Assembly (NCBI RefSeq): GCF_009687885.1
Contig: NZ_BLAF01000005.1
Span: 38,529-102,528, forward strand
Source: Acrocarpospora pleiomorpha
GTDB lineage: Bacteria; Actinomycetota; Actinomycetes; Streptosporangiales; Streptosporangiaceae
DNA: 64,000 bases
Reading direction: 5' to 3'
Made by a program: the position numbers and the translations under genes. The notes under the pieces were generated by a model. That model was not told the origin of the DNA. It did no database searches and saw only the letters and a list, made by a program, of their open reading frames with translations. This document shows positions 1-56,060 of the stretch, piece after piece (position 1 is the first letter of the stretch; the number at the start of each line of letters is the position of its first letter).

Positions 1-123
1 TGGCGGGGCCGGGCGGAGCCCGGGGGAAACAAAGGGAGGGTGGGTGGGAGAACCACGGTCCTCTTCACGAGTTCACATTCGCGCGTCCACCTTGCGAGGA
101 CCTGCGGTGATGTTGTGTTCGGT

Positions 124-951
124 GTGAAGGTGGGCTTGGGGGAAGGGGAGAATCGAGGTGGGCGGGTTCCCTCGCCGGTACCGTGGCAGGGTTGGTGGGA
201 GAGGGCCGAGGCGGCCATAGAGGAGTGGGACGTGCGTGACGCCACGCGGCAGACCGTTGTATGGGACGCGCTTCGCGTCGCGCTGGCCGGGCGGGAGACC
301 GCGACCGGGCGGGAGGCGCTGGACATCGTGGACGCGGGAGGGGGCACCGGGGGGTTCGCGGTGCCGCTGGCGCGGCTGGGGCATGCGGTGACGGTGGTCG
401 ATCCGACGCCTGACTCGCTGGCGGCGCTGGAGCGGCGGGCCGCTGAGGCGGGTGTGGCGGTCAAGGGGATCCAGGGGGATGCGGGAGATCTCGGGGAGCT
501 GCTTTCGCCCGGGAGCGCCGATCTGGTGCTCTGCCACAGCGTGCTGGAGTATGTCGAGGATCCGGCGGCGGCGCTGGCCGCGATCGGGGGGTTGCTGCGG
601 GCGGGCGGGGTGCTGAGCGTGCTCGCGGCCAATCCGGTGGCGACGGCCATTCACCGGGCGGTGGCCGGGAACTTCGGTGAGGCCCGCCAGGTGCTGGCCG
701 ATCCGGCGGGACGCTGGGGCGAGAAGGATCCGACGCCGCACCGGTTCACGGCGGCGGGGCTGACGAGCCTGCTGGGGAGCGCGGGGTTCACGGTGGGGGA
801 GACGCACGGGGTGCGGATCTTCGCGGACCTGGTGCCGAGCCGGTTCGCCGAAGGGGATCCGGACGCGCTGGTGGCGCTGGAACAGGCCGCGGCCACCCAT
901 CCGGTGCTACGTGACATCGCCACCCAACTGCACCTCCTGGCATACCGATAA
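124..951 (+). CDS. SAM-dependent class I methyltransferase
   Basis: Predicted cytoplasmic methyltransferase of unknown substrate. A Rossmann-type AdoMet site is visible: motif I is DIVDAGGGTGGFAVPLA, followed by an acidic strand end (VVDPTPDS), an acidic GDAGDLGELL loop and the LCHSVLEYVEDP motif typical of class I enzymes. The conserved part begins around PWQGWW (near base 183), so the start is uncertain. In-frame GTG codons at 124 and 130 are plausible, and the frame stays open back to a GTG at 40. No convincing ribosome binding site decides it. It lies upstream of dinB, as in many actinomycetes, separated by a tandem repeat. Family assignment is secure; the substrate is unknown. Confidence 0.8.
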   Translation: MKVGLGEGENRGGRVPSPVPWQGWWERAEAAIEEWDVRDATRQTVVWDALRVALAGRETATGREALDIVDAGGGTGGFAVPLARLGHAVTVVDPTPDSLAALERRAAEAGVAVKGIQGDAGDLGELLSPGSADLVLCHSVLEYVEDPAAALAAIGGLLRAGGVLSVLAANPVATAIHRAVAGNFGEARQVLADPAGRWGEKDPTPHRFTAAGLTSLLGSAGFTVGETHGVRIFADLVPSRFAEGDPDALVALEQAAATHPVLRDIATQLHLLAYR

Positions 952-47327: not shown

Positions 47328-49103
47328 TCACGGGCGAAATGTCGTGAGAAATGTGTCGAAGTAGGAGCGGGCGGCTTCCCAGTTGCTTTCGGGGACCTGC
47401 CAGTAGAGGGCGTAGCAGTCGTCGCCGATCCGGAAGGCGCGGTCGATGACACGCTGCCGCCCGGCGGAGGTGGCGAAGGTGAACTCCCAGTCGGCGGCGG
47501 CCACGCCCCGGTATTCCGCGGGTTCGATGCTGATCTTCTCGTACTTCGGCAGCAGGCCCTTCGCGGTGGAGTTGCGCTCCACCGTCTCCAGGGCGGCCAC
47601 GGGGTCGCTCTCCTCCCAGGGCGTGAGGTCGACCTGGAGGTAGCCGGGCATGGCCGGGCCCCGGAACCGGACCCGGGCGGCGTTCGGCACCCGCTCGGCC
47701 TTCCACCCCCGCGGCAGCGCGATCGCGAAGCCGAGCTCGTCCCGGTAGGACCGCCAGCCCGGCGGGAGACGGTTCACGGGCGATGCCGAGGGAGCGGAGG
47801 TCGCCGTCTCCCTGGGCGTCTCTGTGGGCGTCTCCACGGGCGTCCCTGTGGCCGTCACGTGGGATGTCGCGGCGGCGGTCTCCGTCGGGGTCCCGTCGAT
47901 GGTCTCCGTGGGGGTGTCCGCGGTGGGCAGCGTGATGACGCCGGATCCCGGATCACCCGCGAGCTGCTGGTACCCGAACCACCCGGCCACGCCCAGCGCG
48001 ACGACGAGCACGGGAACCAGCACGAAACCAATCAAACGTTTGTTCGATGACGCTGGGCGCGGCTGGGTCGGCACCGGCGGGACGCCCCATTCGCCGCCGC
48101 CCCAGGAGCCCGCCCCGGCCTGCGGCCACCCGGCCTGCGACCACCCGCCCGGCGGTCCGGTCGGACCAGGAGTCGCACCAGGAGTCGCACCAGGAGTCGC
48201 ACCAGGGCCCCACGGAGGCGGCGTTTGAGGCGGCCCAGCCGGTACCGGGGTCTGTGGCGACATAAGTGACATAGGCGACATAGACGGATTGGTTCCGGAA
48301 GCTGCCTGCTTCAGGAGTTCCTGCGCCTCCACGGCGTCGATCCGCCGGCCGGGCTCCTTGCGCAGCAACCCCTCGATCACCGAGGTCAGCGGCCCCGCCC
48401 GGCGCGGCATATCGGGCTGGCTGTGCAGGATGGCCGCCATGCTGGCGATCGGCGTGCCCCGGTCGTACGGCGAGCGCCCCTCCACCGCCGCGTAGATCGT
48501 CGCACCCAGCGACCAGAGATCCGACTCCGGCGTGGCGGGCTGCCCCATCAGGCGCTCCGGCGGCATGAACGCGGGCGTCCCCGTGATGCTCCCGGTCATC
48601 GTGAGCCCCGGGTCCTCCGTCATGGTCGCGATGCCGAAATCGGTGAGCACCACCCGGTTGTCGCCGCTGAGCAGCACGTTCTCGGGTTTCACGTCGCGGT
48701 GCAGGACGCCGGCGGCGTGTGCCGTACACAGCGCGTCCAGGATCTGCAGCCCCATGGCGGCGGCGCGTTCGGGGATGAGCGGCCCGTGCTCGCGCAGGAC
48801 CTGGCCGAGCGAGCGGGCCTGGACCAGCTGCATGACGATCCAGGGGCGGTCGTCCTCCTCGATCACGTCGTGCACCACGACCACGTTCGGATGCGAGAGC
48901 CGCCCGGCGGCCCTGGCCTCGCGGATCGTCCTGCGGTTGAAGGCGACCCGGTCATCCTCGCTCAGCGCGGTGTACAGCACCTCCTTGATCGCGACGGCCC
49001 GGTCGAGCAGGTCGTCGTGGGCACGCCAGACCACGCCCATGCCGCCCCTGCCGATGGGTTCGAGCAGCTGGTACCTGCCCGCCAGGCGACGCGCTTCGTC
49101 CAA
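47328..49103 (-). CDS. Transmembrane Ser/Thr protein kinase (downstream paralogue)
   Basis: A 591-residue PknB-type kinase. Kinase domain about residues 8-270: Gly loop IGRGGMGVVWRA, K40 (VAIKEV), HRDVKPENVLL, DFGIATM and GTPAFMPPERL. A Pro/Gly-rich linker with ATPG repeats precedes one helix (about 356-376, FVLVPVLVVALGVAGWFGY). A Thr-rich stretch and a ~140-residue extracytoplasmic domain follow (LPPGWRSYRDELGFAIALP). No PASTA repeats. TTG start at 49103 with GGAGGGGG upstream. It begins 24 bases after the upstream paralogue, so the two are probably co-transcribed. Confidence 0.92.
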   Translation of the reverse strand: MDEARRLAGRYQLLEPIGRGGMGVVWRAHDDLLDRAVAIKEVLYTALSEDDRVAFNRRTIREARAAGRLSHPNVVVVHDVIEEDDRPWIVMQLVQARSLGQVLREHGPLIPERAAAMGLQILDALCTAHAAGVLHRDVKPENVLLSGDNRVVLTDFGIATMTEDPGLTMTGSITGTPAFMPPERLMGQPATPESDLWSLGATIYAAVEGRSPYDRGTPIASMAAILHSQPDMPRRAGPLTSVIEGLLRKEPGRRIDAVEAQELLKQAASGTNPSMSPMSLMSPQTPVPAGPPQTPPPWGPGATPGATPGATPGPTGPPGGWSQAGWPQAGAGSWGGGEWGVPPVPTQPRPASSNKRLIGFVLVPVLVVALGVAGWFGYQQLAGDPGSGVITLPTADTPTETIDGTPTETAAATSHVTATGTPVETPTETPRETATSAPSASPVNRLPPGWRSYRDELGFAIALPRGWKAERVPNAARVRFRGPAMPGYLQVDLTPWEESDPVAALETVERNSTAKGLLPKYEKISIEPAEYRGVAAADWEFTFATSAGRQRVIDRAFRIGDDCYALYWQVPESNWEAARSYFDTFLTTFRP

Positions 49104-49127: not shown

Positions 49128-51074
49128 CTACTTGTCCGGCTTGAAGGTGGCCGTGAACGTCTCGAAGTAGTGGAAGTACTTCTTCCAGTCCGAGTCGCGG
49201 GTCTTCCAGAAGATCGCGTACCCGTGCTTCTTGTCGGTGACGAACCCGCGGTTCATGACGTGGCCGGTCGAGCCGCCGGGCTCCCAGGTGAACTCCCAGT
49301 CGGCGGCCTCGTCGAAGTAGTCCACCGACTCGATCTTGATCCGCTTGTAGCCGGGCCAGTTGCCCACGCTCCCCCGCTCCTGCTCCTTCCAGTCCTTCAC
49401 CGCGTCCTTCCTCGGCGAGCTGGTGAACCCGATCTGGAGGTACGCCCCCTCCAGCGGCCCCCGGAAGAACACGCCCATGCTGTTGCGATTGTCCTGCTTC
49501 CAGCCCTTGGGGAGGGCCAGCGAGAAGCCGCTGCTGTCCTTGTAGCGCTTCCAGCCGTCCGGAAGCGCGTCCCCGGATGATTCGGGCTTGGGCGACTCGG
49601 CCGCCTTGGAGGGTTCGGCTGAGGGCTTTTCAGCGGTCGGCTCCGCGCTGCCCGACGGCGGGGCGGAGCTCGGGGGCGCGGACCCGGCGGCGGTGGCCGC
49701 CGGAGAGCCGCCCTCGTCGTCGGCCTGCTGAGCCCCCAGCCAGACGCCCACACCCGCGATGAGCAGCAGCACGGGCACGATCACCAGCGCCGCCCTGACC
49801 GCCAGGGGCCGCCGCTCCGGCGGGTTGATGTTCCAGTCCGGATACGACACGGGCAGCTTCGACCGCGCGGTGTCGGCCCCGTCGCCGGCGCTCCAGCTCG
49901 GCTCGGCCGGCGGCTCCTCCTCGCGCTTCCATTCCGCCGGTACGGCCCGAGCCCCCGTCTCCACCGGATACGGGTCCTTCCGGACGGCGGCGGCCGGGAC
50001 CGGGCTGCGCCTCGGCGTCTCCTCCCGATCCGCGGCCTCCTCGGGTTCGACCTGGGGCTTCGGCTCGGGTTTCGGCTCGGGCTTGGGTTTGGGCTTGGGC
50101 ACCGGCTTGGGCGTCGGCTTGGGCACCGCCAACGATCGCGGCGGCTCGGCGCGCTTGGGTTCCGGCCGCTGCGGCGGGACCGGCGCCTCGACCGGCAGTT
50201 CGACCGGACCGGTGTCGGCCTCGCTCGCCTTGACCGCCTGGAAGGCCTTGGTGGGCGGGGGTTCGGTCTTGGCGCGGCGCAGCAGCCGGACCGTCTCGTC
50301 GTAGCTCGGGCGGTCGCCGGGCTCCTTGACCAGGAGCCGGTCCAGGACCACGCCCAGGCGGCCCGCGTGCACGGCGGGGTCGGGCTGGTCGTTCAGCACG
50401 GCGTGCATGGTCGCCATCGCCATGCCCTTGTCGTGCGGTGGGCGCCCCTCCACGGCCGCGTAGAGGGTCGCGCCCAGCGACCACAGGTCCGACTCGCGCT
50501 GGGCGGGACCGCCGCGTAACCGTTCCGGCGCGATGAACGCGGGGGTGCCCACGAGCCCGGTCCTGGTCATCGTCGAGTCGGTCTCCACCCGGGCGATGCC
50601 GAAGTCGGTCAGGACCACCCGGCCGTCCTCGGTGAGCAGAACGTTCTCCGGCTTTACGTCCCGGTGCAGCACCCCCTGGCCGTGCGCGGCGCGCAGCGCG
50701 TCCAGGACCTGCAGCCCGATGTCGGTGACCCGGGCGGGCGGCAGCGGCCCGTCCTCGCGGATCACCTGCCCGAGCGAGCGGGACTCCACCAGCTGCATGA
50801 TGATCCAGGGACGGCCGTCCTCCTCGATCACATCGTGCACCACGACCACGTTCGGGTGGGTGAGCCGCCCGGCGGCTCTGGCCTCCCGCATGGTCCGGCG
50901 GTTGAGCTCCTCCAGCTCGTCGCCCATGGCGCTGTCGTACCTGACCTCTTTGACGGCGACCGTGCGGTCCAGCAGCTCGTCGTGGGCCTTCCACACGATG
51001 CCCATGCCTCCCCGGCCGATGGGCTCGATCAGTTGGTACCGGCCTCCGACGAGTCGGCCTTCCGCGTTCGACAT
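49128..51074 (-). CDS. Transmembrane Ser/Thr protein kinase (upstream paralogue)
   Basis: A 648-residue kinase of the same architecture: IGRGGMGIVWKAHDELLD, VAVKEVRYD, HRDVKPENVLL, DFGIARVE and GTPAFIAPERL. A long cytoplasmic linker has a KP/EP repeat (about residues 310-345, VPKPKPKPEPKPEPKPQ). One helix lies near 430-450, and the extracytoplasmic domain begins LPDGWKRYKDSSGFSLALP, clearly related to that of the downstream kinase. ATG at 51074 is preferred over the GTG two codons upstream because of the AGAGGGG spacing. Its promoter would lie in the 116-bp gap before it. Confidence 0.92.
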   Translation of the reverse strand: MSNAEGRLVGGRYQLIEPIGRGGMGIVWKAHDELLDRTVAVKEVRYDSAMGDELEELNRRTMREARAAGRLTHPNVVVVHDVIEEDGRPWIIMQLVESRSLGQVIREDGPLPPARVTDIGLQVLDALRAAHGQGVLHRDVKPENVLLTEDGRVVLTDFGIARVETDSTMTRTGLVGTPAFIAPERLRGGPAQRESDLWSLGATLYAAVEGRPPHDKGMAMATMHAVLNDQPDPAVHAGRLGVVLDRLLVKEPGDRPSYDETVRLLRRAKTEPPPTKAFQAVKASEADTGPVELPVEAPVPPQRPEPKRAEPPRSLAVPKPTPKPVPKPKPKPEPKPEPKPQVEPEEAADREETPRRSPVPAAAVRKDPYPVETGARAVPAEWKREEEPPAEPSWSAGDGADTARSKLPVSYPDWNINPPERRPLAVRAALVIVPVLLLIAGVGVWLGAQQADDEGGSPAATAAGSAPPSSAPPSGSAEPTAEKPSAEPSKAAESPKPESSGDALPDGWKRYKDSSGFSLALPKGWKQDNRNSMGVFFRGPLEGAYLQIGFTSSPRKDAVKDWKEQERGSVGNWPGYKRIKIESVDYFDEAADWEFTWEPGGSTGHVMNRGFVTDKKHGYAIFWKTRDSDWKKYFHYFETFTATFKPDK

Positions 51075-51190
51075 CCACACCCCTCTCGAAACCCAAGAAT
51101 CGTCCCACGGATGGCAAATGGATCAAACGAGAGACCACTGCCCTAATCCTGCGATGTGAGACAGAACATTCTCAGGCCGGGGGAACCGGG

Positions 51191-52718: not shown

Positions 52719-53636
52719 TCAGCCCACGTTGAGGCGGAAATAGGGGATCAGGGAGCGCAGCACGACGGCCGCGTGCCAGGCGGCGGTCGCCTGCTGGCTG
52801 TCGTCCTTCCGTTGATCGTCCTTCCGCTGGTCGGCGTTGTCGCTGATGCCGCGCACCACGGCCCAGCCGCGGACCGGGCTCGACCGCTCCCGCTCGTGGA
52901 AGGCCTGGGCGAGCCCGCCCGCCTCCATGTCGACCGCCAGGATCTTGTCGTTGACCGCGCGCAGGTGGTGGACGATCTCCGAATCCGCGTCGGCGATCAC
53001 GGCCTCGCCGGAGCCGATCGGGCCGTGCAGGACCCGGTGGCCGCGGGAGACGCCGCGGGCGTCGGCGGTCTGGAAGCGCGCCGGATCGCCGTAGTCGGTG
53101 AAGAAGCAGTTCACCGCGTGGGTGATGGTGGCGGGGGAGGACTGCTCCGAGGTTCGGCGGCGGATCTCGAAGGCGGTTTCCTTGCGCAGGTCGTAGTAGA
53201 CCACCTCGGTGGAGACGGCGACGTCGCCGATCGCGATGTGCGGGTTGACCCCGCCCGCGATGCCGCTGATGACCACGATCTCCGGCGCGTACTGCTGGAC
53301 CAGCCGGGTGAACGCCATGACGGCGGAGCGCTGCCCCTGGCTGTGGGCGCGCAGCGCGGCCACCCGCGTGGAGGTGCCCCTGACGTGCACGGTGCCCTCG
53401 TAGAAGGGCGTGCCGCCGGTCATCGCCAGGGTCAGGTCGAGCACGTCGCGCACCGCGCCCATCTCGACCGGCAGGATCGTGATCACCCCGATGTCCGCCT
53501 GGCGCTCCGGGCGGGGATCGGCCCGGGGCCCGGTGGAGGTCTGGACGGTCGCCCCCGTGCCGACCGCCGACCCCGTGATGTTCGCGGTACCACCGCCGAT
53601 GACGATGCCGCTGTTGGTGCTGACGTCGCCGTTCAC
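52719..53636 (-). CDS. Nucleoside phosphorylase/nucleosidase with N-terminal shared motif
   Basis: A 305-residue protein. Residues 8-31 (NSGIVIGGGTANITG, then SAVGTGATV) match, without gaps, the C-terminus of the neighbouring membrane protein. From about residue 47 a PNP/MTAN-fold domain follows: DIGVITILPVEMGAVRDVLD, VISGIAGGVNPHIAIGDVAV, the catalytic-Glu motif VDMEAGGLAQAF and RGISDNAD. The expected reaction is cleavage of a purine nucleoside-type substrate; key residues are present so it may be active. Such domains also occur as effectors in bacterial conflict systems. GTG start with GAGGAG upstream, 19 bases after the membrane protein gene. Confidence 0.82.
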   Translation of the reverse strand: MNGDVSTNSGIVIGGGTANITGSAVGTGATVQTSTGPRADPRPERQADIGVITILPVEMGAVRDVLDLTLAMTGGTPFYEGTVHVRGTSTRVAALRAHSQGQRSAVMAFTRLVQQYAPEIVVISGIAGGVNPHIAIGDVAVSTEVVYYDLRKETAFEIRRRTSEQSSPATITHAVNCFFTDYGDPARFQTADARGVSRGHRVLHGPIGSGEAVIADADSEIVHHLRAVNDKILAVDMEAGGLAQAFHERERSSPVRGWAVVRGISDNADQRKDDQRKDDSQQATAAWHAAVVLRSLIPYFRLNVG

Positions 53637-53655: not shown

Positions 53656-55230
53656 CTATTCCTCGAAGGTGGTGCCGCCGGCGTGGACCCGGGCGTTGGC
53701 CCCGACAGCCGACTGGTTCATGTCGATCTTGCCGCCCATGTTGAGCACACCCAGGTTGTTGATGATGCTCGCGGCCCCGCGCCGGAACGACACGGGATCG
53801 AGCCCCGCCGACGCCAGGAACTCCTCCGTCGCCGTGAGCAGCAGCCGCTCGATGATCTTCAAGTGATCCTGGATCAAGGTCTCGTCCAGACGCGCGTCTG
53901 CCCACGGGACGCTCGCCCAGTCCTCCCGGACGCTGCGCCGCGTGCCTATTGTCCCCCCACGCCGGGGCACCAGCGTACGATCCCGCCCCGCCAGTATCGC
54001 CCCGATCACCAGCCCCGGCGCCGCCACCAGCCGCCACACCCCGGCCACCTGGCCGGGCAGCTCGCCCACCCCGCGCGCGACGGCCCGCACGACCGCTCCG
54101 GGCCCGTTCTCCGCGTACGCCTCGACCTGCTGGAACTCCGGCGGCGTACGGGTGAGCGCGCAGGTGACCAGTTCCAGGCTGAGCGTGCGCGCCTTGACCG
54201 TGGCCCGCAGGAACACCGTGACGACGACCTCCTCGGCCACGTGTGTGGTGATCTCCAGGAAGTGCCGCACCCGGCCGAAGGGGTTGTCGACGACCGTGTC
54301 GATCTCCTCCTGGCCGGGCCGGATCCGCAGGAAGTCCCGGTCGCCGAGCACGTCCTCCTCGGCGACGTAGAGCCGGTCGCGGAGCTCGAAGCCGGGCAGC
54401 TCGGCCAGGGGTTCCAGGACGTCCTTGAGCCGGGCGACCAGCGCGGAGGCGCGCACGTGCGGGGTTTCGTCCGGCTGGAGCGCGTCGGCTCGTTTCAGCG
54501 GGACCCCCATCGCCCACCGGTGGACCAGCTTGCCGCTGCCCACGAAGAGCTTGTCGGCGCCGGTCCGCCGGTAGACGACGTAGGGGTACCGCTGCTGCCG
54601 GTCGATCTCGTGCAGGCGCGGGCCCCCGCGCCGCACCCGCATCGAGCTCGCCCAGTAGGTCTGGTTGAGCGCCTGCTGCCGCAGCCCGCCCGCGAGGCCC
54701 GCCACCACGGCCAGCAGGATCCCCATGCCGCCGGCCGTCCGCCCCAGCTCCCCGAGCGGCGTCCGCACGGCCTGGGCCACCACGGGCGGGACGAGCGCGA
54801 ACAGCAGGCAGCCGGTCACGCCGAGCCGCAGGAGCCGCGTCCGCCCCGGCGTCACCTCGCCGCGGCGCGGCCGACGGTGTTCCCGCGCCTTGACGGCCCC
54901 GCGGACGGTCAGCCGGGCCAGGCCCCAGAAGCCGAGCCCCCCGGCCACCACGATCGTCGCCGGGGCGTTCCTGGCGAAGCAGGCGGCCAGCAGGCCGAGC
55001 AGCGCGACCTGCTGACCGGTCTCCAGCACCCAGGCCCGCCAGGCGTGCCGTACGACCGGGACGAGGTCGAACCCGTAGGAGGGCGCGATCCGGTGCTTGC
55101 TGTCGTTGTGGACCTCGCGGAGGACGTTCCCGCGGAATTCCCGATCGAGGTAGGTTCCCGCGCAGAGGTGGCGGGTGGTGGCGTCGAGCCGGAACGCGGT
55201 GAGGTCCCGGCCTGCCGGAATGTGGGCCAT
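53656..55230 (-). CDS. Membrane protein of unknown function with C-terminal shared motif
   Basis: A 524-residue protein not recognised as a named family. An N-terminal soluble segment (MAHIPAGRDLTAFRLDATTR, then CAGTYLDREFRGNVLREVHN) precedes three or four hydrophobic segments (about residues 85-200). A long soluble middle region (PYVVYRRTGADKLFVGSGK; VRHFLEITTHVAEEVVVTVF) and one more hydrophobic stretch near 400 follow. The final 33 residues carry N492-L-GVLNMGGKIDMNQ-SAVGANARV, the motif also at the N-terminus of the downstream phosphorylase. ATG at 55230. First gene of the pair, divergent from the NrtR-like gene across a palindrome. Confidence 0.8.
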   Translation of the reverse strand: MAHIPAGRDLTAFRLDATTRHLCAGTYLDREFRGNVLREVHNDSKHRIAPSYGFDLVPVVRHAWRAWVLETGQQVALLGLLAACFARNAPATIVVAGGLGFWGLARLTVRGAVKAREHRRPRRGEVTPGRTRLLRLGVTGCLLFALVPPVVAQAVRTPLGELGRTAGGMGILLAVVAGLAGGLRQQALNQTYWASSMRVRRGGPRLHEIDRQQRYPYVVYRRTGADKLFVGSGKLVHRWAMGVPLKRADALQPDETPHVRASALVARLKDVLEPLAELPGFELRDRLYVAEEDVLGDRDFLRIRPGQEEIDTVVDNPFGRVRHFLEITTHVAEEVVVTVFLRATVKARTLSLELVTCALTRTPPEFQQVEAYAENGPGAVVRAVARGVGELPGQVAGVWRLVAAPGLVIGAILAGRDRTLVPRRGGTIGTRRSVREDWASVPWADARLDETLIQDHLKIIERLLLTATEEFLASAGLDPVSFRRGAASIINNLGVLNMGGKIDMNQSAVGANARVHAGGTTFEE

Positions 55231-55246: not shown

Positions 55247-55271
55247 TATTAAGGTAAGGATGACCTTAATA
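55247..55271. promoter_or_regulatory. Perfect palindrome between NrtR-like gene and membrane-protein operon
   Basis: TATTAAGGT (55247-55255) and ACCTTAATA (55263-55271) are exact inverted copies with a 7-base spacer, 17 bases from one start codon and 46 from the other. It is a strong candidate operator for the adjacent NUDIX-HTH regulator, controlling both directions. Confidence 0.7.
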
Positions 55272-55316
55272 CGCGGAAGGGCTTTTGGTCAAGTTGACGT
55301 TTAGTAGGGTGGAGCG

Positions 55317-56060
55317 GTGATCGGTACGACCGGGCATGACCCGGAGGTGTCCCTGCTGGCCGTGACCGTGGACTTGGTGATCTTCACGGTTCGTGGGGAT
55401 GAGCTGCACATTCTGGTCATAGAACGGGGGAATGCGCCATTCCTGGGGGTCATGGCACTGCCTGGGGGATATGTGCGGCCGGGGGAGACGCTCGATGAGG
55501 CCGCGGAGCGGGAGTTGCGCGAGGAGACCTCCCTCGATGGGAGCGCTCTCCATCTGGAACAGCTGCGCGCCTACAGCGAACCGGAACGCGACCCGCGCGG
55601 GCGCGTGATCACCGTCGCCTACCTGGCGCTCGGCCCGGATATGCCGCCGCCGGTGGCGGGGACCGACGCGCGGGAGGCCGTCTGGGTGCCGGTCGCCTCG
55701 ATCCTCGGGGGAGGTACCGAGCTTGCCTTCGACCACGCCACGATCCTGCGAGATGCGCTCGAGCACGCCAGATCGCAGCTGGAGCACACCACGGTCGCGG
55801 CCAGGTTCTGCCCCGAGCCGTTCACGGTGGGCGAGCTGCGCCGGATCTACGAGGTGGTGTGGGGGTTCAAGCTCGACCCCAGCAACTTCCGCAGGAAGAT
55901 GACACGCGCGGAGGCGTTTCTGGAGCCCACCGGGGAGCAGCGGTTCCCCGACGTGGGCCGGCCGGCGGCGCTGTACCGGCGCGGCAGCGCGCGTTTCCTG
56001 GTCCCGCCGCTGCTGCGCACCGCCGCTTCGCACGATGACGCCCGCGTTCACCCTGGGTGA
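55317..56060 (+). CDS. NUDIX domain regulator, NrtR-like
   Basis: A 247-residue protein. The N-terminal NUDIX domain has the box GYVRPGETLDEAAERELREE, ending TS where the consensus has a Gly, so catalysis may be weak. The C-terminal ~90 residues form a winged-helix typical of NrtR (FTVGELRRIYEVVWGFKLDP, NFRRKMTRAEAFLEPTG). NrtR proteins repress NAD-related genes and are released by ADP-ribose or related nucleotides. GTG at 55317 with GGTGGAG close upstream. The gene is divergent from the membrane-protein/phosphorylase pair, so those are its likely targets besides itself. Confidence 0.87.
   Translation: MIGTTGHDPEVSLLAVTVDLVIFTVRGDELHILVIERGNAPFLGVMALPGGYVRPGETLDEAAERELREETSLDGSALHLEQLRAYSEPERDPRGRVITVAYLALGPDMPPPVAGTDAREAVWVPVASILGGGTELAFDHATILRDALEHARSQLEHTTVAARFCPEPFTVGELRRIYEVVWGFKLDPSNFRRKMTRAEAFLEPTGEQRFPDVGRPAALYRRGSARFLVPPLLRTAASHDDARVHPG

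Follow-up and report, generated by a model that had tools for sequence, protein, structure and literature searches.

Why do two adjacent bacterial proteins carry a similar short segment, one at its C-terminus and the other at its N-terminus? In Acrocarpospora pleiomorpha (family Streptosporangiaceae; contig NZ_BLAF01000005.1, positions 38,529 to 102,528), a 64,000-nucleotide stretch that we refer to as the window encodes a membrane protein and, starting 19 bp downstream of its gene, a nucleosidase of the PNP/UDP superfamily (Table 1). An earlier note, made from the sequence alone, had described an ungapped, glycine-rich match between the two and proposed that the matching segments, here called tags, are oligomerisation or docking elements that link a sensor in the membrane to an effector that cleaves nucleotides. 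We find that the tags are a real, specific and coevolving pair in a widespread receptor-effector family, and that they almost certainly function together.

Tagged pairs in the family and beyond

The window tags form an ungapped alignment of 24 positions (residues 492-515 and 8-31) with 10 identities, just as the earlier note had it; its coordinates, 53656-55230, hold the membrane gene, and the partner lies outside them. Taken alone, this match is modest and at most suggestive: BLASTP gave E 0.071 for this one comparison, 0.42% of shuffled sequences scored as high, and a search of its own genome with a single 36-residue tag sequence recovered only the query itself. We searched 201 genomes of the family for relatives of the membrane protein and found them in 71 (E 1e-5), with close relatives in about 30 genomes and shorter or weaker ones elsewhere. 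The neighbouring enzyme was located at 32 family loci, the window included, and at all 32 both proteins bear a tag at the same sites, C-terminal in the membrane protein and N-terminal in the enzyme, where it precedes the catalytic domain. Recurrence in other protein pairs was what the note's proposal hung on, and many such pairs were found.

We also built a 25-column tag profile from relatives of both sides, so that its recovery of both genes is expected. In the window genome it had exactly two matches, the two genes themselves (E 5e-11 and 3e-6). Over the 101 whole family genomes searched, all matches below E 0.02 fell within the two adjacent genes and none elsewhere, and at that threshold neither tag ever occurred alone. 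Because the profile finds only the two adjacent genes, the match is not chance; this exclusivity, together with the cognate matching over 62 loci described below, led us to reject chance likeness. The tags are rich in glycine (17.6% vs 6.6%) and asparagine (13.6% vs 2.3%) and low in charge and proline, a composition that would be compatible with amyloid.

The enzyme matches PF01048 in Pfam (E 5e-23), MTA/SAH nucleosidases in the Protein Data Bank (PDB; E 1e-20) and the PADLOC profile for PN-superfamily effectors (E 1e-20). E57, E237 and D265 (P0001 numbering, first Met uncounted), which we take to correspond to the catalytic residues of MTA/SAH nucleosidases, are kept in 24 of 24 aligned relatives; the protein has both the fold profile and the catalytic Glu, Glu and Asp of the MTA/SAH type. 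We rejected a housekeeping MTA/SAH nucleosidase, as the scores against two NCBIfam models, 63.2 and 78.1 bits, lie below the cut-offs of 73.8 and 169. The match to solved MTA/SAH nucleosidases starts at about profile position 41-46, beyond the tag, and the tagless orthologues described below can be aligned only from about residue 46. By these alignments the tag is outside the catalytic fold, as had been claimed.

Outside the family, within the same class and phylum, the membrane-protein profile (A1) finds membrane genes followed by different tagged proteins. One type is DUF5955-like, helical and about 115-145 amino acids long; two of these partners match PF19380 at E 8e-8 (above the curated cut-off) and 1e-5 (just below it), the rest more weakly, and a literature search turned up no paper on DUF5955. 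A second type is EAD1 (PF19955; L133, L139, L143 and L147), and each genome with such a partner contains 7-12 EAD1 matches, of which some are fusions with TIR or NB-ARC. Further partners belong to the PNP superfamily, by Pfam at L146 and by sequence similarity at L155. Three partners (L206, L208 and L209) carry two tags in tandem, and the monomer model of one predicts a helical domain with confidence and gives the tag region a predicted local distance difference test score (pLDDT) below 50. A simple open reading frame search, which could miss one, gave no tagged partner at some distant loci, among them L127, L128, L129 and L149. A contig scan with the window membrane protein itself found only a near-identical locus in Acrocarpospora macrocephala. 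At L117, L122, L131, L134-L137 and other loci of the f18 and g85 genomes, a proline-rich gene whose product starts about WNxETQRWExG lies downstream and adjoins the DUF5955-like partner. In a second membrane-protein subfamily (L065, L066, L068, L070, L073 and L126), zinc-ribbon (CxxC) proteins are encoded on the other strand immediately past the tagged partner.

Matching, apparent copying and joint loss of the tags

At 30 nucleosidase loci, where partners were picked by whole-protein homology and the scores are free of the inflation that comes with choosing the best open reading frame, cognate tags scored 71.8 on average and non-cognate tags 52.9, and none of 20000 permutations reached the cognate mean. 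With distant loci added, the figures over 62 loci were 72.0 and 37.3 (0 of 5000 permutations), somewhat inflated at the distant loci, where the partner was the best-scoring frame just downstream; the sequences are related, so none of the permutation figures is an exact probability. Control segments outside the tags were not elevated (26.1 vs 25.6; 1181 of 5000 permutations). The cognate partner also outscored the partner of the nearest relative, judged by the membrane core, at 48 of 62 loci (Wilcoxon 3e-8). As tags are closer to their own partner than to that of another species, the matching goes beyond mere common descent. Examples are the pairs of L058 (GGTNDFTNTTFGDQAQVQNHGS / GGTNSFTNTTFGDQAQVQNHGS), L063 (GSGDVQIGNANTIGS / GTGNLTIGDGNRIGS), L146 (ATFHGGRHSFSGSTFGSGDIHHHTPP / ATFHGGRHSFSDSTFGSGDIHHHTPP) and L135 (GAVGIGDNNTITN / GAFAIGDNNTVTN).

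Similar tags in neighbouring genes could also arise by copying of DNA. In L055, L058 and L146 the two tags are near-identical in DNA, including synonymous sites and rare codons, and the identity stops close to or exactly at the tag boundaries, a pattern that suggests recent copying between adjacent genes; the tags of L073 and L151 have unusually many codons in common. Over all loci, identical residues were encoded by the same codon at a frequency of 0.55 in cognate pairs, or 0.52 without the three loci, vs 0.485 in non-cognate pairs. As codon identity is near background in most loci and the proteins still match, the likeness there is maintained at the protein level, and we rejected pure DNA copying as the main cause.

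Comparison of five genomes of the window's genus revealed what appear to be natural losses. The A. macrocephala-like genome (G107) retains the pair. G080 and G027 still have the NUDIX, enzyme and amino-acid permease genes in place (81-87% DNA identity) but lack the membrane gene, and neither genome has any tag-profile match. In G128 an enzyme remnant and the permease stand at the site, the membrane gene is gone, and a complete pair, 47% identical, lies elsewhere. At this site the enzymes of all three genomes (L231-L233) are without the tag and have lost the catalytic Glu of VDMEAGG and further stretches of the active site. The simpler interpretation is loss, because the complete module occurs in many other genera in the same gene order; the receptor, the tag and the active site would then have been lost together in three congeners. 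The frames of the remnants (L231:2174-2896, L232:8911-9675 and L233:1567-2181) are open, with strong third-position GC bias, and these genes may serve as non-enzymatic proteins and not be plain pseudogenes.

Layout of the locus and its candidate regulator

Table 1. Features of the tagged pair and of its surroundings in the window
Feature	Position	Strand	Details	Basis
Membrane protein gene	53656..55230	(-)	524 amino acids	
Conserved N-terminal segment of membrane protein			TRHLCAGxYLDRxFR...APSYGFDL	family alignment
Four predicted transmembrane (TM) segments of membrane protein	residues about 75-183			alignment, hydropathy, model
Cytosolic alpha/beta domain of membrane protein	residues about 215-478		C-terminal tag beyond	predicted model
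C-terminal tag of membrane protein	53686..53757	(-)	residues 492-515, NLGVLNMGGKIDMNQSAVGANARV	
PNP/UDP-superfamily nucleosidase gene (MTA/SAH-nucleosidase-like)	52719..53636	(-)	305 amino acids, GTG start	
N-terminal tag of nucleosidase	53544..53615	(-)	residues 8-31, NSGIVIGGGTANITGSAVGTGATV	
Divergent NUDIX and NrtR-type winged-helix gene	55317..56060	(+)	PF00293, PF21906	
Operator-like element	55288..55298		GTCAAGTTGAC, between the divergent genes	
Second inverted repeat	55248..55270		ATTAAGGT-AAGGATG-ACCTTAAT	read from sequence

The description of the first gene product as a membrane protein is borne out by family-average hydropathy, in which four hydrophobic peaks, at 75-109 and 136-183, are kept family-wide. 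A basic loop (9 K/R, 2 D/E) joins TM2 and TM3, and the N- and C-termini are probably both cytoplasmic. The monomer model (mean pLDDT 81.7) predicts long membrane helices and a soluble alpha/beta domain, with the tag disordered (pLDDT below 50 over residues 494-524). The protein matched no Pfam, NCBIfam or PADLOC family, the membrane family matched no PDB sequence, and structure searches with the model gave no clear fold relative. Their matches, START/Bet v 1-like, KA1-like and others, were weak or middling: Foldseek returned E 0.03 or worse, and the best VIA-align score of the soluble domain against START/Bet v 1-like helix-grip folds (Z 6.8, root-mean-square deviation 3.2 over 116 residues) is below the level that separates relatives. 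Since the START/Bet v 1-like matches are only weak, a ligand-binding sensor domain is a guess.

A NUDIX gene adjoins the pair at 34 of 34 nucleosidase-partner loci and at 0 of the DUF5955 and EAD1 loci, and its product, which also has a winged helix, is probably the regulator of the module. A palindromic consensus, AGTCAAGNTGACCTTTAG, is found near the same intergenic place in most loci, and 5-bp gapped palindromes of the operator-like element turn up at 5-6 of 33 loci, whereas 30 shuffles never gave more than 2. The element (GTCAAGNTGAC) is probably bound by the NUDIX protein. Gapped repeats related to the second inverted repeat recur at other loci, and this repeat is a possible second operator.

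A third gene, for a protein of about 220 amino acids without a Pfam family (MDAFxLGVVSSLLATALTV...), is kept in 20 loci and absent at the window. In most of the loci with this gene (L035-L058, L062, L146 and L155) it follows the membrane gene at a distance of about 0.8-1.05 kb; L146 and L155 have it on the upstream side. L063 and L064, whose tags are among the most aberrant, have an extra co-oriented gene for a 173-amino-acid protein with hydrophobic segments between the NUDIX and membrane genes. Elsewhere in the window, two neighbouring Ser/Thr kinase-like genes (47328-49103 and 49128-51080) are clearly related, with similar C-terminal extensions, and are probably a tandem duplication.

A model for the pair and its place among known systems

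These data are consistent with a model in which the membrane protein recruits and activates the nucleosidase through homotypic tag contact, probably with beta-templating, and we regard this as the likelier course of events, with some reserve. The membrane protein would be anchored by four helices, with both termini in the cytoplasm, and would have a soluble domain and, at its C-terminus, a flexible tag about 25 residues long, and the nucleosidase would hold a like tag on a flexible N-terminal arm. A trigger acting on the membrane protein would cluster its tags, which would template the same beta-structure, most likely amyloid-like beta-arches, in the tags of the nucleosidase. The enzyme, collected at the membrane and activated, would then cleave a nucleotide or nucleoside, with growth stop or cell death as the probable outcome. 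The NUDIX-winged-helix protein would probably repress the module by acting at the operator-like elements, and it may also detect the product or remove it. Of the earlier proposal, then, the pairing of the two tags stands, carried by covariation, joint loss and the catalytic residues; the sensor role and tag contact that it also held we infer. We are less confident of a defence role, which that proposal drew from conflict systems, than of homotypic recruitment.

Several points weigh against this model. Contact between the tags, fibres and enzyme activity are, like polymerisation, the direction of signalling, the substrate, the trigger and the defence role, things that we infer, and the monomer models, neutral on beta-arches, leave both tag types unstructured. 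The window pair is itself poorly matched, with its own partner ranking 25th of 30, and the tags of a close relative, L034, contain a proline and an insertion. Three of the five genus genomes are without the membrane gene at this site, so the module may be decaying here. The identity at synonymous sites in three loci indicates that part of the likeness comes from DNA copying and not from selection alone. No recognisable defence genes lie beside the window locus.

The most durable alternative is a receptor-effector pair that works in metabolism or development, for example in NAD or ADP-ribose homeostasis via the NUDIX regulator, and not in conflict. Such a role, which is compatible with the tag mechanism, would suit the presence of the NUDIX and NrtR-type winged-helix gene at every nucleosidase locus, the conserved operator-like elements and the ordinary genes that neighbour the window pair. 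We nevertheless think it rather unlikely, given the patchy presence of the family and its loss within a genus, an exchange of partners that extends to EAD1, a domain known from conflict systems, in genomes that also have TIR or NB-ARC proteins with EAD1, and the PN-superfamily effector among the closest PADLOC profiles.

Alternatively, the tags may dock the two proteins into a small, stable complex, for instance by each contributing a beta-strand to one common sheet, and no templated polymerisation would be involved; a resting enzyme may then be tethered or inhibited by the membrane protein. Covariation and joint loss fit any specific homotypic contact, and the decay of catalytic residues where the tether is lost suggests that a partnerless enzyme may be useless, not dangerous. 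However, a heteromeric dock would usually evolve complementary halves, not identical ones, and the like-for-like matching, the low-charge, Gly/Asn-rich composition, the tandem copies and the resemblance to a fungal amyloid motif described below favour self-assembly; we consider simple docking improbable. That the tags have no joint function and are a mobile or converting low-complexity segment copied between neighbouring genes would account for L055, L058, L146, L073 and L151, but is very improbable, as most other loci match as proteins with codon identity near background, the tag is found nowhere else in the searched genomes, and it always occupies the same end of particular proteins and is gone with the membrane gene.

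How does templated recruitment of a nucleosidase compare with established systems? In two-gene amyloid signalosomes an NLR and its effector have a common short terminal motif; the bacterial motifs are the bacterial amyloid signalling sequences (BASS), and the fungal ones are HET-s, sigma, PP and PUASM. As at the loci described here, the motif of adjacent genes is alike within each pair. BASS1-10 couple NLRs to BELL, CHAT or TIR effectors (Dyrka et al. 2020, reviewed in PMC7889193; models in PMC8086366). The likeness extends to adjacent or overlapping genes, a short terminal motif in both proteins that matches within pairs, many motif families and occurrence in filamentous actinobacteria. The receptor here, however, is a four-TM membrane protein, and no NB-ARC or NACHT (NLR) domain was found by Pfam, NCBIfam and PADLOC scans of the window and relatives. 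The BASS motif lies at the NLR N-terminus and the BELL C-terminus, whereas the motif here lies at the receptor C-terminus and the effector N-terminus, and the effectors differ, being nucleosidases, DUF5955-like proteins and EAD1 proteins. Because NLRs are absent and the termini reversed, the pair would work like an amyloid signalosome, given polymerisation, and not be a member of the NLR class.

PUASM, the fungal Pnp_Udp-associated amyloid motif, is tied to PNP_UDP effectors, and its peptides form amyloid fibres (PMC9815663). The likeness is that an effector of the same superfamily is coupled to a receptor through a common short motif; the fungal receptor, in contrast, is an NLR. Some likeness to the published peptide is seen in the tags of L060, L063 and L064 (GVQNIGSGNLTIGD vs GIQHTGSGNFSVGN), although this was the best of 124 comparisons and is only suggestive, and the partial resemblance could be convergence; the PUASM pattern FxGxGxQxxGxGxF is absent from both window tags. 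The tandem tags of L206, L208 and L209 are in turn a likeness to HET-s.

Effectors of the PNP superfamily degrade (d)ATP in several defence systems, among them CBASS (Cap17), Detocs, pAgo, DRT8 and NLR-like systems, according to a table in PMC10952713, citing Rousset et al. 2023. The PF01048 enzyme described here resembles them, as its PADLOC match indicates, and its kinship to Cap17-type ATP nucleosidases would be one of profile likeness. Unlike those effectors, it has no CD-NTase, two-component or NLR partner, and we propose activation through the tag. Conflict systems with EAD coupling also use a short adaptor common to a regulator and diverse effectors (Kaur et al. 2020, PMC7159879; 2021, PMC8195603), and some tag partners are themselves EAD1 proteins. 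The tag differs in being about 25 residues long and non-globular; Pfam found no EAD domain in the window proteins, and EAD1 was seen only in the four distant partners named above.

The earlier note had not recognised the tag pair as described, and we likewise found no description of this family of membrane proteins, whether in Pfam, NCBIfam and PADLOC or in the papers searched, all outside subscription journals. The dozens of matched and mismatched tag pairs offer material for asking how homotypic tags keep parallel pathways apart, and the congeners that lost receptor and tag together are natural controls. With some hesitation, and a little short of even confidence, we suggest that the loci represent a large NLR-independent class of prion-like signalling in actinobacteria, in which one receptor family uses exchangeable effectors (nucleosidases, DUF5955-like helical bundles and EAD1 adaptors), insulated by homotypic tags that diversify fast and regain their match through coevolution at the protein level and, occasionally, through copying of tag DNA between the receptor and effector genes. 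A 2021 review (PMC7889193) asks whether bacterial signalling amyloids exist in NLR-independent pathways; the tagged family, with its membrane receptor and likely enzymatic output, is a concrete and widespread candidate.
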